A DNA stretch of 64,000 bases from Sipunculus nudus (lineage: Eukaryota; Annelida; Sipuncula; Golfingiida; Sipunculidae): the NCBI GenBank assembly GCA_026874595.1, contig CM049311.1, forward strand, positions 75,084,953 to 75,148,952, in the 5' to 3' direction. A program made the translations under genes and the position numbers. Numbering within the stretch: the stretch's first letter is position 1; the number at the start of each line of letters is the position of its first letter. This document shows positions 4,301-59,166 of this stretch, in pieces. The notes beneath the pieces were generated by a model. It was not told where the DNA came from. It was given only the letters and a program-made list of their open reading frames with translations, and searched no databases.

Positions 4301-4888
4301 ATGTTGTTCAAATCATATTTTCGAAATATCTTAAAGGTGTTGTTATTCAGTTGGAATAAACATTCTAGAATATTTATTGTGTCCTGTGATGTTGTGTTAC
4401 ATTTGCAATGTTAGGAGTGGTGTATCCTGTGTGAGGCCTTTAAATTCAGATATTGTTTTTATTAGCTTAGCTAATGGGTCCCTAATTTCACTCTGTGAAC
4501 TTATATGATGGTTAGCATCTAAAATTTGTTACTAAATATCTTAACAGTTGCTGCAGCTTTCTCCACAAAATTTTGCAAACATGTTTACTATATGTGACCA
4601 GTATTCTAAAAAAGCTTTTGCTTGTGCCACCTTTGTGGACTTACTTTCTCAGAACTTTAATTATGATTTTTATCCATTTTTCCTGAAAAACGTCAGAAAA
4701 GATTAACACTTTCGTATCACAGTTTACACCTCCTTAGAAGAAGGGAAATTAAATTAGAATGAACAGAGTTAAATTAATTTCAAAATGGCATGTTTATTTC
4801 AAATTTGGTTGATCACAAAATTTGACTGCTTGATCTGTTTGCATACAAATGTCTCATGAAAGTCTGGAGCTATCGGCTTCAAATTTTT
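1315..4888. other. AT-rich intergenic DNA with no gene seen
   Basis: No coding exon or RNA gene is recognisable here. Segments near 1790-2110 and 3140-3480 share landmarks (a 'CACAATCCTAGGTTTATTCAGGG'-like stretch, then 'CTGATATTTAAT' and 'ATGTGAAAGG'), suggesting two old copies of the same unnamed repeat. There is a short G run near 2321. Confidence 0.4.
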
Positions 4889-5945
4889 AGTGAACCTGTG
4901 GCGTTGTCCGTCGTCCGTACGTTTACCTATACTATCTTGAAAACGGCAAGAGTTAGCATCACGAAATTTTATGCAAAATATTACTCATCTACAAAACTCT
5001 ATTGGATTTTGCTTATTTTTTGGCTAACTGCATTTTCTTAGATTTTATAGGGAAAAGCTAAAAAAGCTTTAAAAATCTTCTTCTCCGAAATTGTTCAGCC
5101 AAATTGTCTAATATTTCAGAAAAAAAAATGATTTCTGGAACAATCTCTCTCAAGTTTCTTTGAATGGTTTAAGTTTGGTGATTTTTGGCCGAGTTACAAG
5201 AAGTTGAACTCAGTCATCTGTCCAAAAAAAGCATACTAAAATTACAATCTCAGAAACAGCTGGAGCTATCATCACCAAATTTTATGCTAATGTAGGTCAC
5301 GAGTCATATCTGAAATTTAGGTATTGGTGGCGCCACCTGCATCGGCCTTTTTTGTACAGGTGTCATCAGTGCCCTTATCATAATGACGACTACAAAAAAA
5401 ACTTCTTCTCTGAAACCATATGGCCAAATTGTTTAATATCGCACAGAAATGATCCTAGAATAGTGCTTTCTGAAGTCTGTTCAAATGGTCTCAGTTCAGT
5501 GACTTTTGGCTGAGTTATGGGAAGCTTAATTTAGTCATATGCCATAACAGCCAATTTTAGCTCCGTGGCTACAAAGATCTTCTCAACAAAACCAATGGGC
5601 CAAATTCTTTAATCTCACACATTGATTATCCTTAGATGTTGACAATTCAAGTTTGTTCAAATGGTTTTGGTTCAGTGATTTTTGGCTGAGTTATGGGAAG
5701 CTTAACTTAATCATTTTACTGTATTTTCCACTATGAGTTATAAACCTGCAAAACGTTTTTTTTGACTGACGCCACTGGAGCCAATTAGTTTAATATTTTA
5801 CAAGAATAATCCCCTAAATAATTCTTATAATAATTGTCTTTTATGGTTCCAAGGAATGAATTTTGGCTGAATTATAAAGATTGAATTGAGTCATTTTACA
5901 ATATATGTTAGCTGTGTAAAGCAGATACATCTATCCTGGCACCAG
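4889..5945 (+). mobile_element. Family B hairpin-ended repeat, copy 1, 3'-truncated
   Basis: This copy starts after TTTT with AGTGAACCTGTGGCG and then GTCCGTCGTCCGTACG. GAACCTGTG (4892-4900) is the exact reverse complement of CACAGGTTC near the right end of copy 2. Inside are divergent tandem units with phrases such as 'TCTCAGAAACAGCTGGAGCTATCATC', 'GGTGGCGCCACC' (5326-5337) and 'TTTTTGGCTGAGTTA'. The right-end hairpin is absent. Confidence 0.6.
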
Positions 5946-6244
5946 TTTATCAGTATTTGTTACATCATGCCTCTAGACATTTAAATTTCAGGTTATCTAT
6001 AGTTAATATTGACAAAAATGTTTTTTAAAAGTTTTTAAAAAATGTAAATTTATGATTTTAGATATTCCTCATGCCAGGCTATGTTTACAATCACAGGTAT
6101 ACAACTCTCTGTGGGTATACAAAGAAGACTGTACATGGATTATAAATAATTGGTATTCATACTCAACTTAATTCATGATTTTGCCTTCAGTGAGATGTAT
6201 CTGTATTATAATTTAGCATTCAATATGCATCTGTAGTAATTTTT

Positions 6245-8858
6245 AGAGAACCTATGAGCTACTGCGATGGTATGGCGGCTTCCGTCGTCTGTACGTTAAC
6301 CCATACTATCTCGAAAATGACTGGAGCTAGCATCATGAAATTTAATGCAAAATATTAGCCATCTGAAAAACTCTTTCTTAGATTTCAAAGAGAAAAAGCT
6401 AAAAAACTTTTAAAAAATCTTCTCCGAAACGGTCAAGCCGAATTGTTTAACATTTAACAGACATAATCTTTTATATAATCTCTCTCAAGTTTGTTCGAAT
6501 GGTTCAAGTTTGGTGAATTTTAGCCGAGTTACAGGAAGTTGAACTTAGTCATCTGTCCAAAAAAGCATACTTAAATGACAATCTCAGAAACGACCGGAGC
6601 TATCATCACCAAATTTTATGCAAGTGTTGGTCACATGAGTCGTATATTAAATTCAGGTATTGGTGGCGCCACCTGCATTGACCTTTTTTGTATGGGGGTC
6701 ATTGGTCATCTGTACATTAACCCATAATTTCTGAGAAATAGCAGGAGCTACCATCCCCACATTTTATGCAATTATCTGTCACATGTTGTGGGATTCAGCT
6801 TATTTATTTGCTATCTGCATTTACTTAGATTTTACAGGGAAAAAGCTGAAAAACCTTTAAAGTCTTCTCCTTGTAAACGGTCCAGCCAATTGTTCAATAT
6901 TTTACAGAAATGATCCCAGAGGCAAGCCCTCTCAAATTTGTTCAAATGGTTTGCATTTGATGAATTTTAGCAGAGTTACACGAATTTGAACTAAGTAATT
7001 TGACCAAGTAAGCATACCGACATAGTAATCTCAGAAATGACAGAAGCTAGCATTACCAAGTATTGTGCAAATGTTGGTCACTTGACTCATATTTGAAGTT
7101 GCAGATTTCGTGGTGCCACCTACATTGACCTGTTTTTAATGGGCAAAAACCTCATAATTTTAGCCTCTTTCAGCTTAAGATGTATATGATGAAACTGTCA
7201 AGTTGAATCGTTCAATTTTTCAAAAGAAATTATCCCAGTACATGTTTCTTTCAATCATATCAGAATAGAGTTTGTTGATTTTTGGTTGAGTCGTGAAAAG
7301 TTTAAGTTGGTCTCCTGGCCATTATTATGTCTATTTCAAACTGAGGACTGCAATAGTGTTCTTCTACAAAATTATTGTTTCAATCATAACTTCTGTAACA
7401 TTGCACAAAAATTATACTTAGTTGGCCTTTGTTCAAGTTAACTTGAATGATTTTTGGCAGAATTATTGGACCTTTAACAATTAAAGGACTGCATCTTTTA
7501 TTATTCTGGTTATTTTGATAAAAAGTTTATGAATATGTCAGCTTGAAAAAAAAGCATTTTAGCATAAGTCTCTCAGTATGTGTAAACAGATTTACCAACA
7601 GGCCATTATTGTGTCTTCATCTTTAAATAGATTGAGAAACTGCCAACTGTTTCAGATTTGGCAACAGATCAAGAGTTCATTCAGTGCAACCAGATATAGG
7701 TCAAGAGTTCATTCAGTGCAGCCAAGCACAAGGCATGTGATCACCTCATTTGGGACATGTGAACATCTTATGGGCACCATGTGATCACCTCATTAGTAGC
7801 AAGTGTACACATGAGTATCATGTGATCACCTCATGGGTGTCATGCCCCTCAGGGCTGCATATGGAGCCAATCTGTGAGCTTATGCAATGGTGTGGCTACT
7901 ATTTCAGATTTGTCAACAGGCAAAAGGTCAGTCTGGATCTATTTATAGCTTTTGCAGACTGCCATCTGTATTAGATTAGGCAACAGGTCAAGAGTTCACT
8001 CAGTGCAGCCAGGTATGGGTCAGGAGTTTACTCAGTACAGTAGCTGCCTTCTATTTATAGCCTTGGCAGACTGCCCACTGCATCAGATTTGGCACCAAAG
8101 TTCAGCCTGGATTTATTTATAGCTTTGGCAGACTGTCAACTTTCTCAGATTATGCAACAGGTCAAGAGTTTACTCAGTGCAGCCAGGTACAGGTCGAAAT
8201 TTCACTCAGTCTAGCCAGGTGCAGGTCATGAGTTCACTCAGTGCAGTAGCCTGAGCCAGCAATTTGTCACAGCTCACTCGGGGCAACTGCCTTTCTCACT
8301 TAAGCTTGGTCAGAACCATGCATAAGACTCAAGGTAAGTTTGATGTATTGGCTTGATATTTTGACCTGTCTATGTTTTCCTGGTGACTTTCTTGTTCACA
8401 AGACAGGTGTCGCCACCTACAATGACTTTAGCACAGTGTATGTGCCTGCTTACTTCTACAGAGGAATTTGATATATCAGCCTGAAATTGGGCATATTTAT
8501 ACATATCGAATAGCTTTGTTGTATACAAGACTGGTGGTGCCACCTTCAATAATTTTTGCACAGTGTGTGTCCCTGCTTATTTCTAAGGAGGGATTTGATA
8601 TATCAGTCTGAAATTGGGCATAAGTATATATCTCTGATAGCTTCGTTGTATACAAGATTGGTGGTGCTAGCTACAATCATTTTTGTGTTGTGTGCACCCA
8701 TGCCAGAATTTTAGCAGTGATGTTTGTGTAATTGTTTCTTATTCAAAATGTTTAGTACTTGCATTGTTCATATACATGAAAAGTAATGGTCCAGCATTGA
8801 AGCATTATACCTGGTGTATTTCCCAACGCACAGGTTCGCATTAGGCCTGTAGGCCTCG
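6245..8858 (+). mobile_element. Family B hairpin-ended repeat, copy 2
   Basis: The left end AGAGAACCTATGAGCTACTG is followed by TCCGTCGTCTGTACG. The right end has CACAGGTTC (8829-8837), then the hairpin AGGCCTGTAGGCCT (8843-8856), then CTCGTTTT. Internal tandem units of the 'gagctatcatcaccaaattttatgc' type run from 6290 to about 7330. A second set ('CACTCAGTGCAGCCAGGT', 'TTGGCAGACTGCC') runs from about 7600 to 8700. The layout matches non-autonomous Helentron/pearl elements. No transposase or helicase frame is present. Confidence 0.65.
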
Positions 8859-12050: not shown

Positions 12051-12597
12051 ACTATAGTCCGTTTCATCCCCTCATGTCCACCTGTTTTTTGCTATGAAAT
12101 TTTTTATTAGGTACATTTCAAGGGAAACAATTATAGTGTAGAGGAGAGGATTACAGAACCTAATTTTCAACTAGGTAACTAAATTCCTACCTTATGCCAT
12201 ATTTGAGTAACAGAATTTTCTGAAAATATGAGAAATCAGTCTACATTTTACAACATATCAGACCCACTTATGGCGGTCAAGGTCATTGGTCACATGCAAA
12301 AAAAGCCTCAACTGACAGCTGCTGATTGGATGATCTCATGTAAACACTCTAAAAAATATAACCAGCTAAAACAAAGATGGCTACTTATGGAGGGACACAC
12401 AATATCTGCCAGATCATGATAAAGAGACTAAAATGTTGTGAAACATGAACGGCGGATTTATTGTAAAATTTTTAACTGCCATATTAGGTTGTCACTTCCA
12501 TATGTTGTTTACTTGGAAAATATTGAAAAATATAAACTTTTAAGTAAATCATCTATAAAAAACAGGTGGACAGCAGGTGGTGAAATGGACTATAGTC
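12051..12597. mobile_element. MITE with about 40-bp terminal inverted repeats (family F), copy 1
   Basis: The left end reads ACTATAGTCCGTTTCATCCC and the right end, reverse-complemented, reads ACTATAGTCCATTTCACCAC. The inverted similarity continues through GTCCACCTGTTTTT. Two more copies lie at 43438 and 47302. Internal sequence such as 'CAGACCCACTTATGG' and 'TGACAGCTGCTGATTGGATGA' is conserved between copies. There is no coding capacity. Confidence 0.75.
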
Positions 12598-14017: not shown

Positions 14018-14074
14018 GAATGCCTGATGTATGTCCCATTGCACAGGTTTGCATAAGGCCTGTTGGGCTTTTTT
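14018..14074 (+). mobile_element. Family B 3'-end fragment
   Basis: TGATGTATGTCCCATTGCACAGG then TTTGCATAAGGCCTGTTGGG matches the right end of family B. A family A element has inserted into its terminal T run. Confidence 0.55.
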
Positions 14075-15969
14075 AGCTCAGCTGACTATAAGTCATCTGA
14101 GCTATAGTCGTGGTCCATTGTCCGTCGTCCGTCCGTCTGTCCGTCCGTCCGTCCGTCCGTCCGTCCGTAGATGTGGCACGTTTTGAAACCGTAAGACCTA
14201 GGAATCCAAAATTCAGCATAATGTTAGATGTCCCCAAGATCTCCTACCAAGCCGAAAACTGGGTCTTTGCGACTTTGTTCCTTTGAGAAATTAAGGAAAA
14301 ACCTCATTTTTTTATTAAAATCCTATTTTCACACTTCAGGACTGCCTAATATCAAAACGACTCATCTGTTTTCCCTCATATTTACCATAAATATTCCTCT
14401 ATATAGTTACTATGTACATGCCAGAAATTAAGTCTGTAAAGTATAAATTCTTTAAGATATGGGCCCAAACATAATGGACTTTGTAAAAAATCAGGAAAAA
14501 TAATATCTCACTTAACATGAAAAATTTTGAAACTAGAGTCTATTTTCTCAAGTATATAACTATGTTTAATTAAGATTCAATTGTTTACCCAAAATTAGAT
14601 CTGAATTTTGTAAATTTTTTTAAGTTATTAGCATAAAAATAAAATCAGTACCTTAAATTTTGCCCAACTTTGACCATGGCACGTTTTTTTCCTGTAAGCA
14701 CCATTGATTTAATTTTCACAGCATGTAAACATAAATATTTAGTTTGTCTAAATCTGAAATTTGAAAATAAAAGCTTGAAAATTAAGCTAGTCATTGATTT
14801 TTTTTTTCTGTAGTCACTTGCTTTGATTACAGATGCAGGGTCCCACTCCAGGTCACTGGAAGTCAGCTATGCCAGGGTTTCTGATTTGTTACAGTCACTG
14901 GGGGAGATCCCCTGCTGTGACAGGTGTACAGTTATTCTCATATCACCACCCCAATCACCCCCCCCCCCCCCCCCCCCCCGCAAACCCAACCCACCAAGTG
15001 TTATGCAGTAATTGTTATTGTTTTCACTGTATCTCCTTAATTGTAATGCTGTTTCCACTTCGATATGCAAAAACTTTCCTTGAAAAAATAATTCAAGGTG
15101 TAATCCAGAAGATGCAATGTTGTGTAATGTAGCATTTTTAAAGAAATCAATTTTCTTTTAAATGATTTTAACAAATATAAATGAACCCTTAAATTATTAT
15201 AAAATATGAAGCACATTATGGATAAATAAAGACACAATTAAAAATTGTGAAATCTAAATCAAGTATTATTTTTAGATATTTATTGTTTTGCAGATTTAAA
15301 AGATATATTTTTGTGGTAAAAAATAAATTAACATTTGTATGCATGATGTGGTGTTATCTGACGTGATTGAGATTTATGATGATGCAATTGAGAATTATGA
15401 ATCAACTTTTATATTCAGATATATATGTTAAATTGGAAATGTATAGAAATATAAACTTAAATTAGAAAATAATTGATGTGATAAAAAAATCAGGATTTAA
15501 TACAAACATTTGTTCATTATTTTCCTGCCTCAGCAGAATTTGAGATCAGGCTTTGTTTGTCCTGTTTTATGTTGTTAATTAGCTATATTTCAACTGTATA
15601 CATTTCATAAAAAAATACATATATATTTAATAATATATATTATACAAAAAAAATAGATTGAATTGAACAAATGTGTAAACTACTGAAATGTCAACAGTTA
15701 ATCGAAAAACCAACTAATGATCATGGTAATAGTACGGATCATTTGTTCACAAACTGCTCACATGCTTTAGTTTCAACATTAGGAAACACATGGTCAGGTC
15801 ACAAAATATTTTTTGCAACAATTTCTTGCTCATCAATACAAACCAATCATATAAACCAACCATGGCCTTAATACCTCTTCTTCTTACACTTTATCTCCAT
15901 TAGATATTATTTTAGATTTTTACCTTCAAGTTTAACGTCAGCTGAGCACAGTGACCCATAGGTCCCTTG
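14075..15969 (+). mobile_element. Family A hairpin-ended repeat (pearl/Helentron-like), copy A1
   Basis: The left end is a 13-bp stem, AGCTCAGCTGACT-ATA-AGTCATCTGAGCT, after a T run. Next come GTCCATTGTCCGTCG and a (CCGT)n tract (14129-14167). A single core unit of about 600 bp follows (14170-14770). A C run lies at 14958-14979. The right end has TCAGCTGAGC, GTGACCCATAGGTC and CTTG before TTTT. The subterminal inverted repeat GCTCAGCTGA/TCAGCTGAGC is exact. No protein is encoded. Confidence 0.7.
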
Positions 15970-16071
15970 TTTTAATGGAGAAATCATTTTTAACTTTGCT
16001 GTCTTTGCCAGGTGAATTAACATGCATGTTTCAACTGACCAAACCTTATGCAGTCAGCCAACATACATTTT

Positions 16072-16220
16072 GCTCAGCTGACTACAAGATAACTGAGCTA
16101 TGGTGATGGTCCTTTCATCTGTCCATCTGTTTGTCCATCCATTAAAAACTTTTAAACCATTGGAGCTACAAGCCAAAATTTGGAATACTGTTAGATGTGC
16201 CTAATATCAACTACCAAGCA
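16072..16220 (+). mobile_element. Family A left-end fragment
   Basis: TTTTGCTCAGCTGACTACAAG then ATAACTGAGCTATGGTGATGG resembles the family A left hairpin, followed by a degraded TCCATC tract and 'CTGTTAGATGTGCCTAATATC'. The right end is not found. Confidence 0.5.
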
Positions 16221-16686
16221 GAAAAAAGGCAAAACCCTGGGTAACAGAGGTAAAACCTGGGTTAATACTTTTAACTCAGGTTTTACCCACTGGATCAGGT
16301 AAATTAGGGTTTACCTAGGTCAAATGCGAACCCTGCCATGAAGGCTGGACTTTGGTCCCTTACAAGGTACCAGTTAGTGCTATATATATATGAGACCTTT
16401 ATTTTATGTGTTTTGGTTAATTTATGGGGAAACCATTCTCTTTCTTACAATCACCATGCAACATGGGATGTGTTAATTATTGATTAATTAGGCTAATTTT
16501 GGAATCCCTGGATGTGGTACTGGCTGCTCATAATTGGCTAGGCTACAGGGAATATTCTGTAATCCTGGGTAATCACAGTAAAAATAATGTCTTTACCACA
16601 AATTTCAAGTCACATGTTTGAATTGATGACCAAAGAAACATGAGTAATCAATTAAAATTTACTGAAATAACAATTTACAGTTTCAG
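16221..16686. other. Region upstream of esterase exon 1
   Basis: This stretch holds a small inverted pair, AAAACCTGGGTTAA and TTAACTCAGGTTTT (about 16250-16285), and no clear TATA box or CpG-rich promoter. If the acceptor at 16686 is used, this is intron of a gene that begins further upstream. Confidence 0.3.
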
Positions 16687-16758
16687 GAGTATTGATGTGC
16701 ACCAAAAAAAATCCCAAAGGAACAAGAGCTGAGGGAGAACACCTCCATTCTTAAAGCC
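16687..16758 (+). promoter_or_regulatory. 5' UTR end and start-codon context of the esterase
   Basis: GCCATGG at the start is a strong Kozak context. TGA at 16693-16695 is in frame with it and closes the frame upstream. TTTACAGTTTCAG ending at 16686 is a good splice acceptor, so there may be a separate non-coding first exon upstream. I cannot place the transcription start. Confidence 0.5.
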
Positions 16759-44943
<28,185 letters not shown>

Positions 44944-44945
44944 TA

Positions 44946-45096
44946 CAGTGAAACCTGTGTTATAAGACCACCTGTGGAGCTGGCCAAAGGTGATCTCAGT
45001 TGACAGGTGATCTTATTAGACAGGTCAGTTATTTTGAATGTTCATAGTGAACAGGTGGTCTTGATAGAAAGATGGTCTTTCAAACAGGTTTCACTG
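44946..45096. mobile_element. Mariner-like MITE (family G) abutting the esterase stop codon
   Basis: TA|CAGTGAAACCTGTG and CAAACAGGTTTCACTG|TA are inverted repeats with TA flanks. The left TA directly follows the stop codon TAA (44941-44943), so the 3' UTR begins with the transposon. The interior has 'GACCACCTGT' phrases as in the intron 5 copy. Confidence 0.8.
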
Positions 45097-45351
45097 TACC
45101 TCCAGACAGTCTGGGCTGTCCAGTCAAACCTCAAACAGATGCAAAAATACCAGCTGAGCTCTCATTGGTTAGCAAATAATACTTGTGATAAGTGGACCAT
45201 GCTTTTTAATGCCTTTTCCCAGTGACCAATTAGCACTCTGCTGAGTGTAGCTTGAGGTCTTTTTGGTCCACTCTTCCTGTCTCAGCCATGATGACCAGGC
45301 CCCACTTCCCCATTCCTCAGATTCTTCAGCTAAATATTTCCTTTGAATTCT

Positions 45352-45357
45352 AATAAA
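45352..45357 (+). terminator. Candidate polyadenylation signal AATAAA
   Basis: AATAAA lies about 400 bp after the esterase stop and just beyond the 3'-UTR transposon. This hexamer is common by chance in AT-rich DNA, so the assignment rests on position only. Confidence 0.35.
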
Positions 45358-45805
45358 GGTAGTAAATTTTGTTTTCATCAAAACTGCTGTATTTAAATCA
45401 TACCGGCAGTTAATGCTTCTTTGATGGCAGTTGTAAAATAGATGTATTCCCTTGAAACCCACAAGGAACCCTTGAGCTGTGTTTCCCTCCTTCAGTTATT
45501 TTTAGATAACATATGACCATAGGGTTTTAACCAATTGTTAGTGAGGATTTCAAGGGCCTGTGCTTGTGGGCTGTCATGGGACTTCTTAATTAAACAAGTT
45601 GCGCTGAATCAAGCAAAATGCAAATCTGTCATCCAATTGTACCTCAGCATTTCTTCTGTCATACAACCTGACCAGGCATTTGTATTTTAAACATGGCCTG
45701 GTCCATTTTATAACATAAGTCATAATACAAAATACTCATTCCACCATCTGTTACAGCATCAAGTGTCAACCTGTTTTGGGGGAATAATTTTCCTATAGGC
45801 TTATG

Positions 45806-45925
45806 TAACAGGTGAAAAGAGAAACAGGACCAGATGTGGATTTGACCCTGTTACCTGTTTAACACAAGTCAGATGTTCTACCACTTCCCTAAAACAGCAA
45901 GCTTCACTTGCAAGGCCAATAGGTA
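45806..45925 (-). mobile_element. Family H related element, copy 2
   Basis: On the minus strand 'GAAGCTTGCTGTTTTAGG' then 'GAAGTGGTAGAACATCTGACT' and 'AGGGTCAAATCC' parallel the copy at 35963. A B-box-like motif is present. The ends are not clear. Confidence 0.35.
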
Positions 45926-46489
45926 AGCTTTAATCTAATATTATTTCATTGAAAACTAAAAATGGGAGTAAAAAATAATTAAAATTTTCAAGAATATTTA
46001 ATAACATTTTTTTAAAATTATCCCATGATCTGACAGATCTATCCTATGGTTGGATCTTTGTCTCTTTGAAGGAGCCATCTTTGTTTTTGCTAGATGTGTT
46101 TATTAGAGTGTTTACCCCACATCATCCAGTCAGCAGATTTTATGAGACCTGTTAAGCTGTGTGCATATTGCAGCAATTTTGACACACTGTTAAAATTACG
46201 GGGTATGTCCGGCTAATATGAGACGTTCCCAACATGCTTCTAACCATGTCATTATGACAGAATCAGCATCTGGCAATTCTATGATATGTAAATGAATTTC
46301 AGACGAAATTGTACAACAAATATCAGATGCCCAACTGGTTGATGCCATGGCTCGATTTATATGTTAATGATACCCGTAATTCTCACATGACAAAGATCAG
46401 CCAAATGTCCACCCAGCTTCAGCCAATTGTTAGAATTTGGGTCCTTGCCTCTGGTCTCTGTTGAATTTCATCTTTTAACAATCAACATA

Positions 46490-46666
46490 CAGTGGATCTC
46501 TACCTTGTGAGACCACCCCACAATGGTGACCACCCCACAATTATGATCATTTTCCTTGGTCTTGAATAAATGATCCAGGTAACTTAGAATTTCCCAAATA
46601 CTACCACCCTCAAATTTTGATCACTTTGGTCAGTCCCCAATGTGGTCGTAATTGTTGGGTTAACTG
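46490..46666. mobile_element. Mariner-like MITE (family G), copy 3
   Basis: TA|CAGTGGATCTCTACC and GGGTTAACTG|TA form a degraded TIR pair with TA flanks. The interior has 'GACCACCCCAC' repeats. Confidence 0.55.
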
Positions 46667-47108
46667 TATGTACTTGGAAATCCATTCTCCCAATTCAGGA
46701 TGACGCAGTGGTGGTACCATAATGAATTTGAAATATACTGTTATCTCAGAAGAGCTTCACATTCCGTTCATCCCTTAATCCTTATCATTGAAGGGACCAA
46801 TATGTCTTATACATACATCTGGTCCAGCTGAATTCATGGTTTTTCTGTAAATGTGTAGGTTCCCTCAGGTTAACTACCAGCATTCCATATAATTGTATGC
46901 GGTATAGAGGCACATGTGGTACTTATGCATATGCAGCTAGATAATGGACACCTTTGATTCCATGGGTATTTGAGTGTATGTGGTATGTATGTGTATGCAG
47001 CCAGGAATCAGACACATCAAATCCTCTTGGAGTATTTCTATCACTATGTGTATGTGGTAAGTATACAACTTCAGGCAGTAGAGAAATCGTCTGCCAGAGG
47101 AATAAAGT

Positions 47109-47140
47109 ACACACAGTAAAACACACTACATATATAAATA

Positions 47141-47206
<66 letters not shown>

Positions 47207-47223
47207 CTTGTTTTACTGTGTGT
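47109..47223. repeat. AT microsatellite inside a perfect 15-bp inverted repeat
   Basis: ACACACAGTAAAACA (47109-47123) and TGTTTTACTGTGTGT (47209-47223) are exact reverse complements flanking about 75 bp of nearly pure AT. It could fold into a long hairpin. Confidence 0.85.
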
Positions 47224-47301
47224 TCACATGGTAAAGAACTGTTAATCTCACCTGCTCGATCGGCCAAAGTGATCATGTGATTAAGAGGTTTGATGATTTA
47301 C

Positions 47302-47834
47302 ATTATGGTCCGTTTTATCCCCTCATGTCCACCTGTGTTTTGCTATGAAAATTTTTATTGGTTACATTGTAAGGGAAACAATTTTAGTGTAGAGGATTAA
47401 ATGACCTAATTTTCAACAAGGTAAATGGATAACAAGCTTGCACCTTATTTAGAAACAGAATTATTTGAAAATATGAGAAATCAGTCTACGTTTTTCAACA
47501 TATCAGACCCACTTATGGTGGTCATTTGTCATATGCAAAAATTGCTTCATTGACAGCTGCTGATTGGATGATGTCATGTAAAGACTCTAATAAAATATAA
47601 CCAGGTAAGGCAAAGATGGCTTCTCATGCTGGGTTCCATCATATCTGCCAGATCATCGAGTAGAGACTAAAAAGTCGTGAAACATAAACTGGGGATTTAT
47701 CGTAAAATTCTCAATTGCCATATTAGTTTGTCTCTTCTATAAGTAGTATCTAGGATATTATTGAAAAATATAAATTTTTAAGAAAATTATTTACAAAAAA
47801 CAGGTGGACAGGATGTGGTAAAACGGACTTTAGT
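47302..47834. mobile_element. Family F MITE, copy 3
   Basis: The left end GGTCCGTTTTATCCCCTCATG and the right end ACATCCTGTCCACC-type sequence in inverse match copy 1. A partial family G sequence ending TTTCACTGTATA follows at 47835-47903. Confidence 0.7.
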
Positions 47835-47903
47835 CTGGGACAAAGTGGTTGTCTTCACTAAGTGGCTGTCATGGTAGTGGTCTTCAGAAGATTTCACTGT
47901 ATA

Positions 47904-50900
47904 CACATAAGTATCAATAGAATCAGTCCAAGAGAAAATAATTATCTGATTCCTGACTGCATACACATACATGGAATGCCACCTTTATTGTAAAACGTCT
48001 AGATTTTCTTTCTGTATTTTCCTGTGGGAAACACCCTGTGCTTATCTTGTTGCTATAACAGAATAAAAACAGGTTAATACTGATTATTTGGAATAAGAAT
48101 TTATTTATTTTCTATCATATGTGCAGGTTTCATAATTTCTCAAAACAGAATGACTTCAGGTGTATAAAGAATTTGCTTGTTCAAGTTGAAGTCATGACAG
48201 TTGTATTTATCAGAGGGGAGAAAGTAGTTTTTGGTTCATTCACATACATACATTATATACACACACACACACACACACACACAGAGTGAAATCTCAAAAT
48301 TATGACCATCGAGAGAAACTTTATCGATAGAGTGGTTGCATTTTCAAGGTGGTTGTCTAAGCAGGGTCTGATATAAAAAGCAAGAAAGATTTGGTACCGT
48401 GAAAAAGTTTTTATTTTGTGTTGGTTGCTCTACCGAAGTGATCATTAGGTGAGGTTTTAAGATATGTTTTTTAATCTTCATACAATTTATGTATGAAGAC
48501 ATATTATTATGATAAATACTTCATTATTTTTCTTAAAGCATTAATCATGAAAACCCATGATGGTTAAGAAGATATCCTTGTTTCTGGAATTTCATGTATA
48601 GGTATTTTATATGTGTGAATATGAAAAAAATATATGTAACATGGTCTTACATCTTTCAGCCACATTAAATGTGCAATGTACAACTGTATAAATATAGTTC
48701 AGTAACTTTATAGATTTATATATTATAATCACACAGGTTAAAACATGACATCTAGTCTAGTTGTGTAAATGGTAACTTTGTATATAGTAAATATGGTGTG
48801 GTGTTGTAAGTTTTACATGGTGCTCCAATTAAACACTGGGGTAAAAGTGCAATATGATATACACAGGTAACATATATACAATTAAAGTAGCACTCAGACC
48901 AACAACTGTGATCATGGCACTGTCAGCACTTTCTTTCTCTCAGTGTAACACCTTTTTAAACAACATTCTTATTTATGTACTTGACGCCTTGGTCTCATTT
49001 ACCATGTTCTGTCTTCAGTTCACCATGTTCTTGAAGGTTGTCGGGGGACTTGGTAAAATTCAGACCTTTGCTATAGGACAGAAATGGAAGTTTTTATTTA
49101 TAGGATGTATTGATATACTCATTTCATTGTGTTCACCAAGAAGAAACATTTAAGTAAGTTCTCAGGCAAAGGTTTCCTGATAAAGCTGTCTCAAATATCT
49201 AATGAAAAAGATCACAAGGTAAAATGATTAAGCTGCTACTGTCAGTACTGAGTATATATTTTTAGCAAAGTTTTTTTTTTGTGCACTGTGATGCAACAGA
49301 ATGACTTTCTGTTGTATCATGGACAAACAGAAAGTCAGTATTGTCAATAAACTGTCAGGCTGCTTCACTCTTGTAATCATTTTAATTAATACAATGGATT
49401 TACAAATACATTTGATAAATCCTTAAACTTGTGGAAAAAAAGAATAATATTGTGTTGTTTTTTTATATATACTCTTTGCTGTTGCTCAATAGAACATTCT
49501 ATGACAAATATTTTAAAATAGTAATCATTTAATATTATGGTTAGCTTCATATGGATGGGGTTTCTCTAGAATTTCATTTTTGTAGTCTAATATGATGTTA
49601 TACAATACATATAGTGTATCCTTTATTTATATCAGTTATTCAATATATGCCCAGAATCTTATCAATTGAAACAGGAAGCAAGGTAACACAGAATGAGTGG
49701 AAATTCTTGTTCATTAGTGGAAGTTTAAAAAATATATATTGATACCGATATTTATAATATTAGTCTTTGATTTAAAGATAATGTAATAAGGCTTTTATTA
49801 TATATGATATCCATCATTTTCCTTGTAATGCTGCAGGTGTAAATGAGTTCAAGAGTATATACCACAGAATATATGAATGTTCACTTATGTAAGTGTAAGC
49901 CTTAATCACAAAGGTTTTATTTTTGGCAATAATTTCCACTTTGCAAATACATATATTGCTTATTTGAAACCTAATGAACTGATACAACAGAAACCCAACC
50001 ACAGTATGTATCTGCTTTATGCTACATTGTATTTCGTTACAATATTTAATTAATAGTGTTTAGTGTTTTCCTGCTGTTGTGGTTGTAGTATGTTAACATG
50101 GCTTGATGTACTCTATCATTAGCATGTTACAAGTATCATGATCTTCCAACAGTGATTGATTTTATATATATATATATATATATATTAAAGGTTGTTTGAT
50201 TGTTTAACTTTCAAAGTCAAGTACCCAATACAATCAGGTTTAAGGGGTACCTGCAATGTAAAACAATAATTCCACGTTTAATCATGTTTACATTATCATT
50301 CTGTGTAGGTGGACAGTCGTCTTTTAGTATATAAATGCATGTTATCAACAGCTATATAACATCACCTTTATGTTGGGCTTGTTAAGTGTAATTGAACAGC
50401 ATAGGATGTACTGAAAAAGATGACATATATTATCACTTTAAATACCAAACTGTCAAAAGAAGAATTCATAAGAACTTACAATGTGTCAGATAAAGAAACT
50501 TATGAAACTAACTGTGAGCTAAAAAGGACTTTCAAGCAAAAAAAAAAAATGTTTAGCTGTATGCTGCATTTGAGGAAGCTTTCAAATCTAGTATATGTAT
50601 ATAAACAATGTAATGAAATAAGGGAAAAATGTGGTAATTGTTCGTGATTATATACTCTTCTTCAATTATGTATTTAAATCATCTAATGATTATGTATTGA
50701 TGGAGGATGTACATTCTGCATAAAAGTGAATTTTAAGTTATTTGTAGTCATTTATCATGTCAGACCCACTGTTATGTAACTCACAAGTTGCCATGCCTTT
50801 CCAGGAGGATGCATTTAAACATGTATACAAATGTGCAATCATATACTCTTTTTTGGGTGTTATTACCCATAGCTGCATGTTGCAGAAATGCAAGGTAGGG

Positions 50901-51012
50901 CTATTTAATAGCTATAATAACCAGGTCACAATGCATGTTCTTAGAGTGCAAAAACTGGGTTGAGTTTTGGTATTTTACCGGTGCCAGATCATGCCTCATG
51001 TAAGGTACTTAA
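47904..51012. other. AT-rich intergenic, no gene seen
   Basis: This region contains a (CA)n run at 48259-48283, a worn family G-like sequence near 48284-48460, and an AT run near 50165-50185. An open frame at 48854-49153 has hydrophobic stretches but no family resemblance or splice context, and I do not call it. Confidence 0.4.
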
Positions 51013-51296
51013 GGCCTAAAAAATAATGGATATGGTTCTCAGGCACTTTTTTCCAGAAATCAGCGCGGGCGGGCGGTATTTTATTTTTTACCTTTTTTGT
51101 ATATTTTAATAAAAATGTCATATGATCAGGGAAAAGCATGAAATTAACAATTTGTATCGCTAAACAGGTTAAAGCACTACATAAATTGTATATTATATCT
51201 TCTTTGAAGATAAAAATCAAAATAAACAATTTTGATGCTGGAAGTTAAAATTGACGCGGGCGGTGCCTGAGAACCATACCTTTATTTTTTTGGGCC
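51013..51296 (+). mobile_element. PIF/Harbinger-like MITE, copy 4
   Basis: It is bounded by GGCC on each side and TAA duplications (51010-51012 and 51297-51299). TIRs contain TATGGTTCTCAGGCAC and GTGCCTGAGAACCATA. At 284 bp it is the shortest copy. Confidence 0.85.
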
Positions 51297-51737
51297 TAAC
51301 ACTAAAGCTTTTTTTCCAGATATCATAGCTATAGTCTATACTTTTTCATTTATATTTTAGGTTTTTAAAGCTCCAATAAATACAATGCTTTTTATATTCC
51401 ATTTACTTGGCTTTGACATTCATTTAATTTTTGCATTTACAATATTCTTTACCAATAATTTAATTAAGTGAACAGCTGGTTGAGAAGAATAAATTATCTT
51501 ACTTGTGTCCCTGTGACTTTGTGTTTATTTGTATGAATCTACATATTAAGCACTGGGGCTTCAAATGTATATATTATTTGTGACAAGTTACCTTTATACA
51601 TGTCAAGTTACCTGAAATTACCCCAACCTTATAATCTTAGTTGTGAGTGCATTTTGGCTTATCTGTTGGCTAACAGATGACGCCGTTTCGATAACACTGC
51701 ATATTATTCTGAAAAAAAAACTCGGTATGCGAGAACC

Positions 51738-51837
51738 TACTGACGCTAGACTTTTGTTTATCGACTTCAGTGCTATACTGCATTCAATACAATTCCCCCT
51801 AAGAATTTTTTTTATCTAAAATTAAAGGAACTAGGTC

Positions 51838-51906
<69 letters not shown>

Positions 51907-52640
51907 TTTGGATAATAAACATTTTATCGAATTGTCCACAGGTAGTTAAGATCGGTGATAGCATTTCTAAGGAGCAGTCTTTAAATACTAGGGCACCCCA
52001 GGGCTGTGTATTATCACCAACATAATATTATTTATTTACATATGACTGTGTGCCAAATCTGATGATTGTCTAATAGTGACGTTTGCAGTTGACACAACCG
52101 TTACCGAGTTTATCCGAGGAGCTAACGGAAATGAATACGGCCATGAAATTGAACACTTAGCTACGTGGTGCTCTGAAAACGAGTTGAATGTTGGGAAAAC
52201 CAAGATGATGATCATAGACTTTCGGCGTAAAAGATCAGAGATGTTGCCCATAGAAATTAATGGTTCTTTGGTAGAAATTGTCGATTGTATTAATTTTTAG
52301 GTATCCATATATCATCAAACTCGAAGTGATAGGAAAATGTAAAATATTGCACAGCGGCTGTACTTTTGAAGCAGACTTAGAGGGTTTGATCTAGGCTGAC
52401 TGGTGCTGCTGAAATTTTACAGAACAGTTAAAGAGAGTGTCTTAATTCTCTCTCACTGCGTGGGGAGGAAGCTTCAATGCCGAGGAACGGAATTTACTTA
52501 ATAGTGTTGTTTAAACGTCTGGGAAGATAATCGAGCCTTCTTTGCCATCTTTTGAATCAATTTACCATTAGAAAAGAGACTGCTAAAGAAAGCGAATGCT
52601 TAAATTAAAGATTCTATGCACTATATGTTTCAAATATTAA
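51738..52640 (+). pseudogene. Decayed LINE reverse transcriptase (L2/CR1/jockey-like)
   Basis: Pieces in changing frames match the reverse-transcriptase order: LLFIDFSA near 51750, KLKELG near 51818, QVVKIGDSISKEQSL then RAPQGCVLSP (51930-52020), FAVDTTVTEFI (from 52082), then LATWCSENELNVGKTKMMIIDF and a QRLYF-like segment near 52355. The catalytic F-A-D-D is F-A-V-D here, losing one aspartate. Frameshifts and stops break it, and an AT microsatellite (51841-51904) sits in the middle. It is a non-LTR retrotransposon remnant and cannot be active. Confidence 0.85.
51841..51904. repeat. (AT)n microsatellite inside the LINE remnant
   Basis: Pure AT dinucleotides, about 32 units, interrupting the reverse-transcriptase coding remnant. 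Confidence 0.95.
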
Positions 52641-53176
52641 AATCTCGAGTTCGTTATCGATCGTTCCAAAGTTATTAAACAAGAACTTTAACGAGTACCT
52701 ACGTGCATGTCAGCCACCCGGGAACTAAACCGATCCGTTGCGGAAATCTAATCTGTAGACAGTTCTCTTTTATATACGATTTTGTACGATTATTTATTTT
52801 CTACTTCAGTATATTCTTTTACAACAAGCTAGTCAAGACGTATACTGTTGTATCTTAACTTAAAACACAACCATTTCCACTATCAAACCTGACTATCCAA
52901 CCGGACTGATATCACAACCACAGGTGCCTAGTCCTAACTTTTTGTTACGTTTGCCATTAAATCCCTCCATAGTGATTCCAAGGTCACACAGACGGAAGTG
53001 AACATCTGTGCAGTAGGTAAAGACGTACACAAAACTAATGTTGCATCACATTTGATAAACAAAAAATCCACATATTTATCAAAGTTTGAACTAAAGCAGG
53101 TTATTAAATGTAAAATTCGAATTAAACGGGCCACTTTTAACAAAAATGTTTGTTTTTGTTTCTTATACATGTAATT

Positions 53177-54350
53177 GCATCCGCAAAAAACAGAGTTTTG
53201 GGGATACTATGTTTTTGTGCGGGTTCCGCCGCCGCGTTCGTTTCCGGAGAACTCCTCTGAGACCCTCGCACCGATCTTTTTGAAACCCGGCATAGTTGTT
53301 TCCTCCCCTATGTAGTTGTGCGTTACAAAGGCAGGTGGCGCCACTTACAACCCTTACTGTGCAGTACGAATATGGGTGTCTTTTAGATAACAGCCCACAT
53401 CTCAGGAGTGGTTTAATGTATTGAGCTGAAAGTGTGCTCTCCATCTCGTATCCAGACTTATGGCGCCATCTACAATCCTTATTGCGTAGCGACCATCTGA
53501 GCATTTGCCATCTATTCGTCTTGGTGGTTCTTCAATGTATTGGGTTATAATTGTACATTTCCGTAGATCTTCGACACCTCCATCTCATAAACAAGACTGG
53601 AGGCGCCATCTTCAGTCGTTTTCGCTTGGTGTCTATCCGTATATTTGCTTTGGATGGAAATTGCTCATATCTCAGGAGTAGTTCAAGGTACTGGTCTGAA
53701 ATTTGGCATGTCCATCCATCTTGGAGAGTTTTCTCGTAAGCCAGATAGGTGGCGCGGCCTACCTTCCCGTTGCCGTAGAACAAATTTATGCCCTTTTCTC
53801 AGGAGTGATTTGCATTATTGGCCTGAAATTGTACATATCCATAGATCTGGGACTCCTCCTTGGACTTAAGACTGTTGGCGCAATCTGCAATGGTTTTCCC
53901 GTGGCGTCCATCCGTAGAAGTGCTTTGGGTGAAAATTGCTCATATCGCGGGCGTCTTTCAAAGTGTTGGTCTAAAATTTGGCATGTCCATCTATCTTGGA
54001 GAGTTTTTTTCTAAACTAGACAGATGGCGCCACTTACCTTACCGTTTTCACTCAAACCATCCATCACTTCACCCGTACCACTTGGATTTCGACGGACACA
54101 CGTTGTCGCTTGTCCACTAACCGTATTCTAGTTACATTAATAGCCGTGACATTTGCCATGCTTGTTTTATCTCAGTCTCAAGCCAAATTATAGTTCATCG
54201 TCTCCAGAATTTCTTGTGAACGTGATGCCTTATGAAGTATTACATATTTTTACCTCAAATATGACACACAAGGTGGCTCCACCGAGTTCTCGGAAGAGTT
54301 CGAGTACTGGTGACCTTGATTTTCAAGGTAAAATCTGCGCAATTGTAGGA
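53177..54350 (+). mobile_element. Family C-like repeat with about 135-bp core units
   Basis: The left end GCATCCGCAAAAAACAG then GGGGATACTATGTTTTTG and CCGCCGCCGCG parallels the family C left end. Units with 'CTCAGGAGTGGTTTAATGTATTG'-like sequence recur near 53401, 53533, 53668, 53801 and 53945. Each is followed by GGCGCCATC or GGCGCCAC. The right end is not recognisable. Several overlapping open frames cross it in different frames and are not genes. Confidence 0.5.
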
Positions 54351-54744
54351 ATATTGTGACCCCAATAACTCTGAAAAAACAAGATTTTCTCCTAAAATTT
54401 TACACACCATTTCTTTCTGTCATGTTCCCTGTAATCAGGGTAAACAAGAAATCAGGCAAAAAGGCAGGTGAATTGCTATCTTTAAATATTCGCAAAGTAT
54501 AAAAAAATACCTAAATCTTTCTCTCACTAGTGATCGGGTGTATATTAATATATTAAACTAAGTAAGTACTCTTTGTTGATCGTAAATTTTGGATGTACGA
54601 GTAAACATGTATGATTCACATTAAACTTCATATTTAACTGTGTTCCCCGTCATGGATAAAAAGTCATGAATGTAATTTGTCACAGGTCCTTCCCCGTTCC
54701 CGTTATGACTGCGTCAGAGACGTTATTAGAAGATCTAGTGGTAT

Positions 54745-55034
54745 AAGCTCAGCTTACTGTAAGTCCGTCCTTTGTCCGTCGTGCCGTCCATGTACAGGGC
54801 ACAAATTGTATGTTCAAATATAACATGCCAACCTGATTGGTCCTCTGTGAAAACTAAAAAAAGAGGTCACTATGATCTACATTCTCCATATTTCAGCACC
54901 TCAGACTTGTATCAGTAAATATTCTATACATATGGCAGAATTTATTGTCATGAAATTTGGAAAACTCACTTGACCAAGGAGACTCGCTGTTGCGACAGAG
55001 GACCAGTTCCGCCACATACAATCTTTCAGTTTTT
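54745..55034 (+). mobile_element. Family A left-end fragment
   Basis: AAGCTCAGCTTACTGTAAGTCC then GTCCTTTGTCCGTCG and 'GGGCACAAATTGTATG' resembles an A3-type start. It is interrupted by A8 in 'TCTTTCAGTTTTT'. Confidence 0.5.
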
Positions 55035-57281
55035 AGCTCAGCTGACTGTAAGTCATCTGAGCTATAGCGATCACCCTTTGTCCGTCATCCGTCTGTCCGT
55101 CCGTCCGTCTGTCCGTTAACCTGGCACAAATCGTAACCGCTGGACCTAGAAACTTGTAACTTGACATTCTGAGAGGTTCATGAAAAATCTCCTTGGAAAC
55201 CAGAAATGAGGTCTCTGTTACCCATATCCTTCGAGCTATGGGGCCCCAAATTACCCCCCCCCCCCCACCCGAATAGTAAAAAGTTTCATACAAAAACAAA
55301 AACTTCAATATCTCATTAACTACATCACTGATGGTCATGATTTTCGGCATACATACTGATCATGAGATGTTCCATCAGTTCCTGCAGACTGGTGGCGCCA
55401 CCTATATTTTTTCGATTTTTTACGAATTTTTTTCTCTATTTTTGAGACCTTTAAAAATGTGAACATCTGTTAACAGGGCACAAATCATAAAGACTGGACC
55501 TAGAATCTGAATTCTTGACACAGTGAGATACCTATGAAAAGTCTCCGTGGAAACCTGAAATTAGTTCTCTGTTACCCATATCTTTCAAGCTATGGGGCCC
55601 CAAAGTACCCCCCAAAAATAGTCAAAAATTTCATACAAAAATTTCAATATCTCATTAACTACATCACTGATGGTCATGATTTTTGGCATACATATTTATC
55701 ATGAAATGTTTCATCAGTTCCTGCAGACTGGTGGCGCCACCTATATTTTTTCGATTTTTTACGAATTTTTTTCTCTATTTTTTGAGACCTTAAAAAATGT
55801 GAACATCTGTTAACAAGGCACAAATCGTTAAGACTGGACCTAGAATCTTCATTCTTGACACAGTGAGAGACCTATGAAAAGTCTCCATGGAAACCATAAA
55901 TTAGATCTCTGTTACCCATATCTTTCAAGCTATGGGGCCCCAAAGTACCCCCACTGAATAGTCAAAAATTTCATACAAAAACTTCAATATCTCATTAACT
56001 ACATCACTGATGGTCATGATTTTCGGCATACATATTGATCATGAGATGTTTCATCAGTTTCTGCAGACTGGTGGCGCCACCTGAATTTTTCGTTTTTTTA
56101 CGAATTTTTTTCTCTACATATGAGACCTTAAAAAATGTGAACATCTGTTAACAAGGCACAAATCGTTAAGACTGGACCTAGAATCTTCATTCTTGACACA
56201 GTGAGAGACCTATGAAAAGTCTCCATGGAAACCATAAATTAGATCTCTGTTACCTATATCTTTCAAGCTATGGGGCCCCAAAGTACCCCCACTCAACAGT
56301 CAAAAATTTCATACAAAATCTTCAATATCTCATTAACTACATCACTGATGGTCATGATTTTCGGCATACATATTGATCATGAGATGTTTCATCAGTTTCT
56401 GCAGACTGGTGGCGCCACCTGAATTTTTTAATTTTTTACGAATTATTTTCTCTATTTTTGAGAACTTTAAGGATGCAGTTATCTGTCAACAGGGTACAAA
56501 TTGTAACGACTGGACCTAGATTCTTTATTCTTGACACACAGGGAGACCCATGAAAAGTCTCCATGGAAACCTGAAATTAGGTCTCTGTTTCCCATATCCT
56601 TCAAGCTATTAGACTCCGAAGTATCCCTCAGAATAATGGAAAATTTGATACTAAAGATGAAGTATCTGAACAACTAATGCAGAGATCACCATGGTTCTTT
56701 GCATGGATATTGATTATGGAGTGTTTCAACGGTTTCTGCAGACTGGTGGTGCCACCTATATTTTATTCAATTTTTCGAATTTTAATCTCTATTTTTGAGA
56801 CCTTTAAGGATGCTGTCATCTGTTAATGTTGCACAAATTGTAACAACTGGACCGAGATTCTTCATTCTTGTAATGCAAGGAGGCCCATGAAAAGTGTCTG
56901 TGGAAACCTGAAATTAAGTCTCTGTTACCCATATCCTTCCAGCTATAGGACTCAGAAGTATCCCTCAGAATAATGGAAAATTTGATACAAAAGCTGAAGT
57001 ACCTAAACAACTAATGCAGAGATCACCATGATTCTTTGCATTGATATTGACCATGTGTTTTTATTAGTTTCTGCAGACTGGTGGAGCCATCTGTATTTTT
57101 TTTAAAGTTAACGCATTTTTTCTCAATTTTTGAGATATATAAATACAGACACAATCTTGGCCTGTTGGTTAATCTGTTTGATGCTTCAGGTGAATGGGTA
57201 TATACTACCATTCAGATGACAAAATTTCCTTTTACGAATCTCTTCCCAGTCAGCTGAGCGTCATGACCCATGGGTCACTTG
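55035..57281 (+). mobile_element. Family A repeat, copy A8 (six about 338-bp core units)
   Basis: The left hairpin AGCTCAGCTGACT-GTA-AGTCATCTGAGCT is followed by a TCCG tract. 'TGGACC' core landmarks lie at 55141, 55495, 55835, 56173, 56511 and 56848. GGTGGCGCCACC occurs in four units (55391, 55730, 56070, 56409). The right end has AGTCAGCTGAGC, TGACCCATGGGTCA and CTTG, as in A3. Confidence 0.78.
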
Positions 57282-57856
57282 TTTTAATGTTTTACTTTAA
57301 TTTTTGGGTATAACTGATTACACCTATTGATTTCAATTTCAACAGATCACAAATCTTTTCTACGTGTAAAGGCCCATGAATTTACACTTCACTTGTTGAC
57401 TTGTTGTGATAGATCCTCTGTCAAAATTTTAAATTAGGTCAATGCATTCTCCGTGAAAGGCGTTTTGAGTATCTCAGAATCCAAGACAGCTGTCAGCAAA
57501 AAATCATTCAAAATTCAGAATGCTAATTTATCTTGGAGAACTAACAATGCTATAAAGTTCAGCGGTGCAGCTTGAAAGCTTGTTATTATTACTTAATAGT
57601 ACATGTCCTTTTGAGAATGACAGATTACAGCCATCAGTCTACCTTCAGCTGGGCACAAATCATACCCGTTTATCTCTGACTATTATCATCTGATTTAGGG
57701 TGCGAAGACAAAGTTTTAGTTCGGCCCTTCTGAAAGGGCATACATTTGAATCATTACATCAAACTTTACGTACAGACTGGTTGTGGTACACCTGATCTAA
57801 TCACCGGGACGTACTAATCTCCCATTTACGGCTAATCTCCCACAGTTAACTCTTTT

Positions 57857-58260
57857 TACAGATTAAGCCACCTGGACGTGTGCAATGGACTCTAGTTTAT
57901 ACATTTATGGCCGGTCAATCTCCCACATTTAACTCTTTACAGATTAACCCACCTGGACGTGTCCTTTGGCTCCTAGTTTATACATTCACGGCTGATCTCC
58001 CACATTTAACTCTTTTACAGATCAAGCCTCCGGGACGTGTGCTATGGCCTCTAGTATATACATTCACGACTTATCTCCCACATTTAACTCTTTTACAGAT
58101 CAAGCCACCAGGACGTGTGCTATGGCCTCTAGTGTATACATTCATGACTTATCTCCCACATTTAAATCTTTTACAGACCAAGCCACAGGGACGTGTGCTA
58201 TGGCCTCTTGTTTATACATTCACGGCTAATCCCACTCATTTAACTCTTTTACATATTTAT
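57857..58260 (+). repeat. 78-bp minisatellite, about five units
   Basis: 'GGACGTGTGC' landmarks lie near 57873, 57954, 58033, 58111 and 58189, with spacings of about 81, 78, 78 and 78 bp. Because 78 is a multiple of three, a frame (57880-58329) stays open as 26-residue repeats (PPGRVLWPLVYTF...). I see no promoter, splice context or known family, so I treat it as non-coding. Confidence 0.85.
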
Positions 58261-58590
58261 AAGGATTTTGCATTAAAGACGTTCTGTGGATTCTTGACTT
58301 CATGGTCAGTAAATATGTTTCATGTATAAACTATGATGTTACATTACTCAGACAACCACATTTTTAAATGGATTATGGAGTCCGTATCTGTAAGACTATA
58401 ATAGTCCATATATGTGAGAATGTATTTCATACAGATTATGTATATGCAACATTACAAATATATGAACTATGAGAAAAATATATAATTATATATGCTTTAT
58501 AGATTTCTAGTAACCCTTTCAATAACATTTTCAAACACTACAATTAAAAGTTTTGAGACTGTCAGGTGACAGCAATCAGGTGACTTTCTT

Positions 58591-59166
58591 AGCTGTTGTT
58601 TCATCTGTTGTCCGGAAACCTAGTGTGTTTATTGATCATAAGCGTGTGTCCTATAGTTATCACCCTGTCCGTCCGTCTGTCCCTTTGACTGTCCGTCCGT
58701 CTGTTCGTCCACTAATTCATTTCCGGATGATAACTCCAGTTTTGATTGACATAAAGATTTCAAACTTGACATATATGGCCCACCACTAAAGCAAGAATCC
58801 AATGATTTTGGTCAATATAAAGGTTAAGGTCATAGCATCCACTTATTTAATTAGATTGTGGAATGTGGATGCATTTTAAGCCAAACTTTTCACCCCAAAC
58901 CTTCCATCTTTCACATATGGCTTACCTGCCAAAAGTGGAAGTAATCTGTAGATTTTGAGGTAACCTGGTCAGAGGTCAAGGTCATGGAACCAACTTTTAT
59001 AGATGGTTGTTATACATATCAAAATGGTGTAAGTTGCGGATAGTAGGTATTTAGATTTTTTGGTAAAAATGTCGAGGGTCAAGGTCACACGACCAACATT
59101 TGAAAAAGCTCATAAAATATCATCATAGACAAATTCAGCTGAGCGTCGAGACCCATGGGTCCCTAG
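58591..59166 (+). mobile_element. Family E repeat, copy 2
   Basis: The left part AGCTGTTGTTTCATCTG and GTGTGTTTATTGATCATAAG matches 40914. A GTCCGTCCGTCTGTCC tract follows at 58667. The core has 'GCATTTTAAGCCAAAC' and 'GGTCAAGGTCA'. The right end TTCAGCTGAGCGTCG, GACCCATGGGTC and CTAG is the family A-type end. Confidence 0.6.

Follow-up and report, generated by a model that had tools for sequence, protein, structure and literature searches.

Probable non-autonomous Helentrons with three types of ends in Sipunculus nudus, and an insertion orientation shared locally between end families

Do the repeat families found at one locus of the sipunculan Sipunculus nudus belong to a single class of mobile element, and what decides the strand on which each copy lies? 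The locus is a stretch of 64,000 nucleotides (C6:75084953-75148952, + strand; hereafter the window) of a genome assembly of 1,426,538,692 bases in 153 contigs. An earlier note had described five unrelated families, A to E, that differ in their cores and share one Helentron-like terminal architecture. The present analysis supports this interpretation, though the five end families become three, and the repeats are very probably non-autonomous Helentrons (HINEs) of end families A, B and C. The element type is already published, from oysters (Cg_HINE) and flies (DINE-1); the new part is an insertion orientation common to different end families. A and B share their local orientation on the examined part of contig C1, C does so more weakly, and two control families with terminal inverted repeats (TIRs) are at chance overall.

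In the window, self-comparison and profile searches locate one C element, eight elements of type A and two copies of B, with a further right end that also belongs to B; all have HINE anatomy. Everything detected lies on the + strand: for A, seven left ends, eight A-type right ends and a 5' fragment; for B, three right ends; and the single C element. An element runs from a T-run through a 5' subterminal inverted repeat (subTIR), a microsatellite (GTCC-like in A and B, CCG in C), a repeat core, a 3' subTIR and a hairpin to a terminal tetranucleotide followed by T. The tetranucleotide is CTTG, CTCG (B) or CTAG (C), with TTAG in element A6 and CTAG in A7. The C element (21715..24611) consists of subTIR GTATCCCCAGAC with its inverted repeat, the CCG microsatellite, a 289-bp core, subTIR GTCTGGGGATAC (24569), the hairpin TGGCACC-TGC-GGTGCCA and CTAG, and in B1 (4884..8858) the T-run is followed by subTIR GAACCTGTG (4892), the GTCC microsatellite, the repeat core, subTIR CACAGGTTC (8829), hairpin AGGCCTGTAGGCCT and CTCG. 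With TGACCCATGGGTCA as the further right-end hairpin, the right ends of A, B and C all fold; in A and C an inverted repeat stands beside the 5' subTIR, so that the left hairpin folds as well. In line with HINEs, which lack protein-coding capacity, the ten open reading frames (ORFs) of the elements that were searched, a set short of every small ORF, gave no transposase or helicase match and a single zinc-finger match below threshold.

All motifs quoted in the earlier note are found in the window. The left string that it gave for both A3 and A8 is exact in A8, whereas the A3 copy reads AGCTCAGATGACT, one mismatch from the quoted string; exact 12-bp subTIR pairs are present in A8 and C, and the A3 pair has one mismatch. 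The 3' repeat had been placed 25-45 bases inside the right end, in agreement with the 30-43 bases obtained from its inner start in A3, B1 and C (21-31 from the outer edge). A scan for the architecture (subTIR of at least 11 bp next to TT, hairpin, tetranucleotide and T) returns four + strand matches, where 100 order-2 Markov sequences average 0.09. Two of the four are C and A8, and in the other two the right end of A3 is paired with left ends of different A-type copies. At 12 bp, four matches compare with 0.01 by chance, and at 9 bp chance gives 1.37. The 9-bp pair of B is thus not significant by itself; B rests on its copies.

The architecture is indeed common to the families, but five families reduce to three end types, because the probable D and E elements (40481-41789 and ~58585-59166) have A-type right ends. 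Calling the families unrelated was accordingly too strong for A, D and E, and the A, B and C end types do differ. B had been placed within 14075-59166; B1 lies outside that interval, and the other B copies are an interrupted one (B2) and the third right end (B0).

Genome-wide copy numbers were obtained as exact matches to end-string patterns, with the reversed patterns as control. The A right-end pattern has 8,083 matches (4,072 forward and 4,011 reverse), the B right-end string 4,650 and the C right-end string 1,857, and each reversed control has 0. Exact A end strings have no matches in IMG/VR, and one A end string has none in GTDB genome contigs. The 30 A right ends that were fetched all share their sequence as far as CTTGTT, with TT after the terminus, and diverge from there on. 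The 21 A left ends compared (7 from the window, 14 from fetched loci) are conserved only inward of the T-run, with at least four Ts in 17, and two other C copies end at, or at most three bases from, the C ends given above. A few copies of B likewise have sharp ends. Continuation of copies beyond these ends, which the earlier note had named as evidence against itself, is thus not seen in any of these sets.

The same note had named target duplications of the cut-and-paste type, and for these three paralogous empty sites are informative. A2 (19905..25974) and A4 (26170..29049) both sit in B2, with the empty forms in B1 at ~6920-6945 and ~7139-7155, and A6 sits in a C-like unit. All three targets are T-rich, with no duplication beyond the Ts. 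Short inverted repeats and a lack of coding capacity would also suit cut-and-paste miniature inverted-repeat transposable elements (MITEs), and pearl-type elements have been classed as MITEs in the available part of PMC5139131. This assignment is nevertheless highly improbable for A, B and C. Their inverted repeats are placed asymmetrically, inside the termini, and a hairpin lies at the 3' end; the three empty sites, all of A copies, have no fixed-length duplication, whereas a true TIR MITE inside A4 (27281..27619, +; here the D MITE, distinct from family D of the earlier note) has TTA on both sides and its empty form in A5.

The remaining copies, all on the + strand, complete the picture of the window. 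B0 (14026..14069) was recovered with an nhmmer E-value of 2e-14 by a B profile that had been built from three stretches including B0 itself, and it is followed directly, head-to-tail, by the left end of A1 (14070..15969). Downstream lie a 5' fragment of an A element (16068..16225) and A3 (17640..19187). B2 (approximately 19308..30411) is split by A2 and A4; its right end is degenerate (~30354-30406) and its left end was not found. The nesting gives the order B2 first, then A2 and A4, then C into A2 and the D MITE into A4. A5 occupies 31510..34153 and A8 55030..57281. A6 (40481..41789) begins with an A left end and a single 338-type unit; a further left end, a weak one, follows at ~40905 and precedes a 289-type core and an A-type right end with TTAG. 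The whole looks like a chimera of a 3'-truncated 338-type A and a directly adjoining complete 289-type A, inserted as one unit. A7 (58585..59166, start approximate) has a degenerate A-like left end recognised by eye, a GTCC microsatellite, a 289-type core and the A-type right end CTAG.

The A-type ends of these elements enclose at least three core types, of ~680 bp (A1, A2, A4, A5), 338 bp (A3, A8 with 5.9 copies, and one unit of A6) and 289 bp (A6, A7). The 289-bp core is common to C and A-type ends (22280-22760 against 41055-41527, 74% identity, E 4e-75 in the self-comparison). It recurs with C ends elsewhere, once with a C left end (L038, 96%) and once with a C right end (L032, 95%); its examples with A-type ends are the two window copies A6 and A7, the latter with its degenerate left end. 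That one satellite-like core stands between ends of unrelated types suggests that exchange is possible in both directions, of cores as well as of ends.

Two short motifs within the cores were also noted. The near-palindrome TGGTGGYGCCACCT, which may resemble a CTCF core, recurs in the 338-bp and B cores, once in C and at scattered sites (e.g. 5325, 6661, 8532, 22039, 55390, 55729). With up to two mismatches it has 40 matches in the window against 0.41 expected, largely because the cores are repeats; as an independent signal it was set aside, since grouping the sites by the likeness of their flanks reduces them to 8 groups when two mismatches are allowed and to 2 when one is. The 289-bp core (22375-24408, 41150-41600, 58973) contains AGGTCAAAGGTCAAGGTCA-like strings, which look like possible nuclear-receptor half-site pairs, with 9 exact copies of AGGTCAAAGGTCA, all +. 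A literature search with GGTGGCGCCACC turned up only unrelated bacterial-enzyme work.

The orientation of these insertions was followed on C1 among the matches listed (the first 100 per pattern, all on C1), which represent one chromosome arm and yield pairs that are not independent. The region 0-11.6 Mb served for discovery, and 11.6-57.3 Mb (A, C) or 11.6-16.6 Mb (B) was held out. In the discovery region, the strands of the 100 A matches form 26 runs against 45 expected, and the A signal persists on thinning to 30 kb (p 0.014) and is lost at 100 kb (p 0.48); between families, C and A agree there in 68 of 91 pairs within 300 kb, a level reached by 0 of 20,000 circular shifts. C alone forms 43 runs against 50.7 (p 0.07). 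B agrees with its nearest A (0-16.6 Mb) in 28/30 cases below 20 kb, 24/27 at 20-50 kb, 10/14 at 50-100 kb and 20/29 beyond; up to 100 kb this amounts to 62/71, where 5,000 circular shifts average 49% with a maximum of 78%. Taken together, A, B and C (n=243) fall into 53 strand runs where 120 would be expected; the longest, entirely on the minus strand, extends over 1.09 Mb and comprises 41 elements, namely 21 of A, 16 of B and 4 of C. At 20 loci retrieved by their A right ends, B shares the strand of the A used as anchor at every locus where it occurs (7/7), as does C or the 289-bp core (2/2), and the A 680-bp core is of mixed strand in 2/14.

In the held-out regions agreement is mainly at short range. 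A-A pairs agree in 9/9 cases below 20 kb, 10/12 at 20-50 kb and 9/13 at 50-100 kb; in the same three bins, A-C pairs agree in 7/8, 4/9 and 7/19 and C-C pairs in 5/6, 3/4 and 5/8. Beyond 100 kb agreement is mostly at chance, except for A-A at 200-400 kb (22/28). Of the B copies with an A at most 50 kb away, 14/15 have the strand of the nearest one, and the merged strands of 11.6-16.6 Mb form 20 runs against 31.2 (p 0.002), or 18 against 24.0 after thinning to 20 kb (p 0.048).

As controls, two TIR-type families, the D MITE and a repeat referred to as the 12041 family, were compared among themselves and with A and C. Below 20 kb they agree in 11/27 cases, where A and C reach 52/59 (Fisher p 1e-5), and at 20-50 kb in 20/36, where A and C reach 60/75 (p 0.008). 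When they are paired with all three HINE families, they agree in 4/7 (0-5 kb), 0/7 (5-20 kb), 5/13 (20-50 kb) and 16/33 (50-100 kb) cases. Contrary to this general chance level, D-D pairs at 20-50 kb agree in 7/7.

Two simple accounts of the orientation were rejected. T-runs exceed A-runs moderately near the C1 copies (385 against 256 at a length of at least 4, where unrecognised HINE sequence may remain), and such a bias could yield ~60% concordance, not ~90%; in window DNA outside HINEs the two are balanced (406 against 363 at 4 or more, 127 against 142 at 5 or more). Orientation domains of 100-600 kb, as the A matches alone had suggested, were abandoned in view of the thinning to 100 kb and because outside 0-11.6 Mb it is mainly pairs closer than ~50 kb that agree. 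In the literature searched, including the available portions of PMC5371812, PMC5876387, PMC4683698 and PMC7492417, no account was found of neighbouring Helitron insertions from different end families that share an orientation.

The genome holds 143 Helitron_like_N matches with open frames of up to 2,426 aa, and the pieces of one Rep locus match DUF6570, OTU, Helitron_like_N (Rep), PIF1 and Exo_endo_phos, the Helentron combination. Copies of this locus on C7 and C11 are 99.3-99.7% identical across the Rep and downstream pieces, which suggests recent activity, and ~95-97% identical in the repeat-rich upstream piece. On C1, 13 of 15 Helitron_like_N matches fall within 63.9-71.8 Mb of the 110.9-Mb contig, unlike the dispersed HINEs. 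A Rep-helicase-endonuclease like those open in this genome would nick at the T-run and peel off the top strand; transfer would stop at the 3' hairpin, and the peeled strand would be joined into a TT target. Top-strand transfer and the hairpin stop signal have their basis in PMC4067079, PMC5876387 and PMC8268682, as far as the available text of these sources goes. Because only one strand would be joined, orientation would record the accessible target strand, and regional strand accessibility would make HINE orientation regional. The orientation common to A and B lends indirect support to the interpretation in the earlier note.

Several observations weigh against the assignment of all three families to Helentrons. 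The earlier note had proposed a search for a Rep-helicase-endonuclease Helentron with matching ends; such elements are present, but matching ends were not found. None of the A, B or C ends occurs in the ~15 kb read of the Helentron family that was followed, whose termini were not reached, and for this reason we infer, rather than observe, that A, B and C share machinery. No autonomous element with these ends was found among the 12 of 143 Rep loci read, those other than the followed one over 3.4-3.6 kb each. The B subTIR, at 9 bp, falls under the 11-bp HINE family criterion in the available part of PMC4067079, and an inverted repeat beside the left subTIR of B was not seen by eye. Empty sites exist for A copies only, none for B or C. 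Finally, in the held-out 11.6-16.6 Mb B agrees with the nearest C within 50 kb in only 7/12 cases.

If strand accessibility sets the orientation, DNA replication is one possible, still tentative, source of it. At forks, the transposase would act on TT that is single-stranded on one of the two templates, and orientation would mark the predominant fork direction. The same-strand excess across end families, its absence overall from the two TIR-type families, the runs of up to 41 elements and 1.09 Mb and the precedent of bacterial IS200/IS605 (PMC5371812, available part) are consistent with such a link. However, concordance outside 0-11.6 Mb fades beyond ~50 kb, and base skews outside HINEs are inconsistent (TA +0.020 and GC +0.010 in the window; TA +0.074 and GC -0.068 near the C1 copies). 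We put forward only as a speculation that Helentron insertion in this animal is tied to some process with a direction along the chromosome, DNA replication being the likeliest; the strands of its many thousand HINEs, from unrelated end families, may then preserve the predominant fork direction as a fossil map, in a eukaryotic parallel to IS200/IS605.

Over most of the arm sampled, the scale of ~20-50 kb resembles that of genes, and orientation might instead follow genes, either through insertion into the exposed strand of transcribed DNA or through selection in introns that removes one orientation. In the window, two ORF stretches match COesterase (30435-30602 and 38164-38358, ~7.7 kb apart), and both are on +, as are all detected HINEs, although this is one gene only. 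The degenerate right end of B2 lies only ~30 bases before the first of these stretches. The longest ORF of the window (203 aa) lies outside the elements and has no Pfam match; it may be a later COesterase exon. The runs of 0.5-1.1 Mb within 0-11.6 Mb would require long co-oriented stretches of genes, and transcription is in our estimate a possible rather than a probable cause.

Concordance is strongest below 20 kb, nested copies are co-oriented, and head-to-tail junctions occur both between B0 and A1 (14069/14070) and between two A copies on C1 (L021 and L046, which are the same locus). These features would be expected if HINEs inserted head-to-tail at T-runs beside resident copies, or spread locally or by segmental duplication. 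Set against this are the 24/27 agreement of B with the nearest A at 20-50 kb, the balance of T4- and T5-runs in the window and the run deficit that survives thinning to 20 kb in the held-out region, itself only marginal, and we likewise rate local self-templating as a possible rather than a probable cause. With the co-orientation in hand, a link of eukaryotic rolling-circle transposition to host replication or transcription becomes directly testable.

Other sequences of the window include further copies of the two control families. The D MITE family (292-1313, 27281-27619, 37229-37535 on the - strand, 51009-51299) has GGCC termini and a TTA duplication, and we take it to be PIF/Harbinger-like; its internal string has 1,035 exact matches genome-wide. 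The 12041 family, a non-HINE repeat of ~550 bp with TIR-like ends by eye, lies at 12041-12597, 43428-43955 and 47304-47835, and its internal string has 661 exact matches. A 78-bp tandem repeat of 5.5 copies (57823-58253) lies in one open frame of 159 aa, whose single Pfam match is below threshold. Scans of the window for Rfam families and tRNAs gave no matches.

Among known systems, close likeness is seen to Cg_HINE of Crassostrea gigas (PMC7492417). Both have a 5' subTIR with an inverted repeat, a GTCC-like microsatellite, a satellite-like core and a 3' subTIR with a palindrome, and both show a preference for TT, no target duplication, several unrelated families per genome, related flanks around unrelated cores and two-array elements. 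A difference is that one flank pair per repeat cluster is reported in the oyster, whereas here the 289-bp core stands under A- and C-type ends. Insertion of Cg_HINE in both orientations is stated there, and the orientation of neighbours is not discussed in that text. HINE/DINE-1 elements and Helentrons (PMC4067079) likewise have one subTIR close to the 5' end and another at a greater distance from the 3' end, a 3' stem-loop, T-rich targets without modification, a variable number of Ts and Rep-helicase-endonuclease partners in the genome; their partners have ends at least 95% identical, whereas none was found here. The pearl-type CvA, CvE and CvG of Crassostrea virginica and DTC84 of Donax, compared by description, are also modular, with conserved ends around satellite-like repeats (PMC11136912, PMC5139131). 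IS200/IS605 elements (PMC5371812) are alike in single-strand insertion and in an orientation that follows chromosomal direction, but they are bacterial and without a helicase, HINEs are not members of that group, and the link to replication is shown there, whereas here it is a hypothesis.

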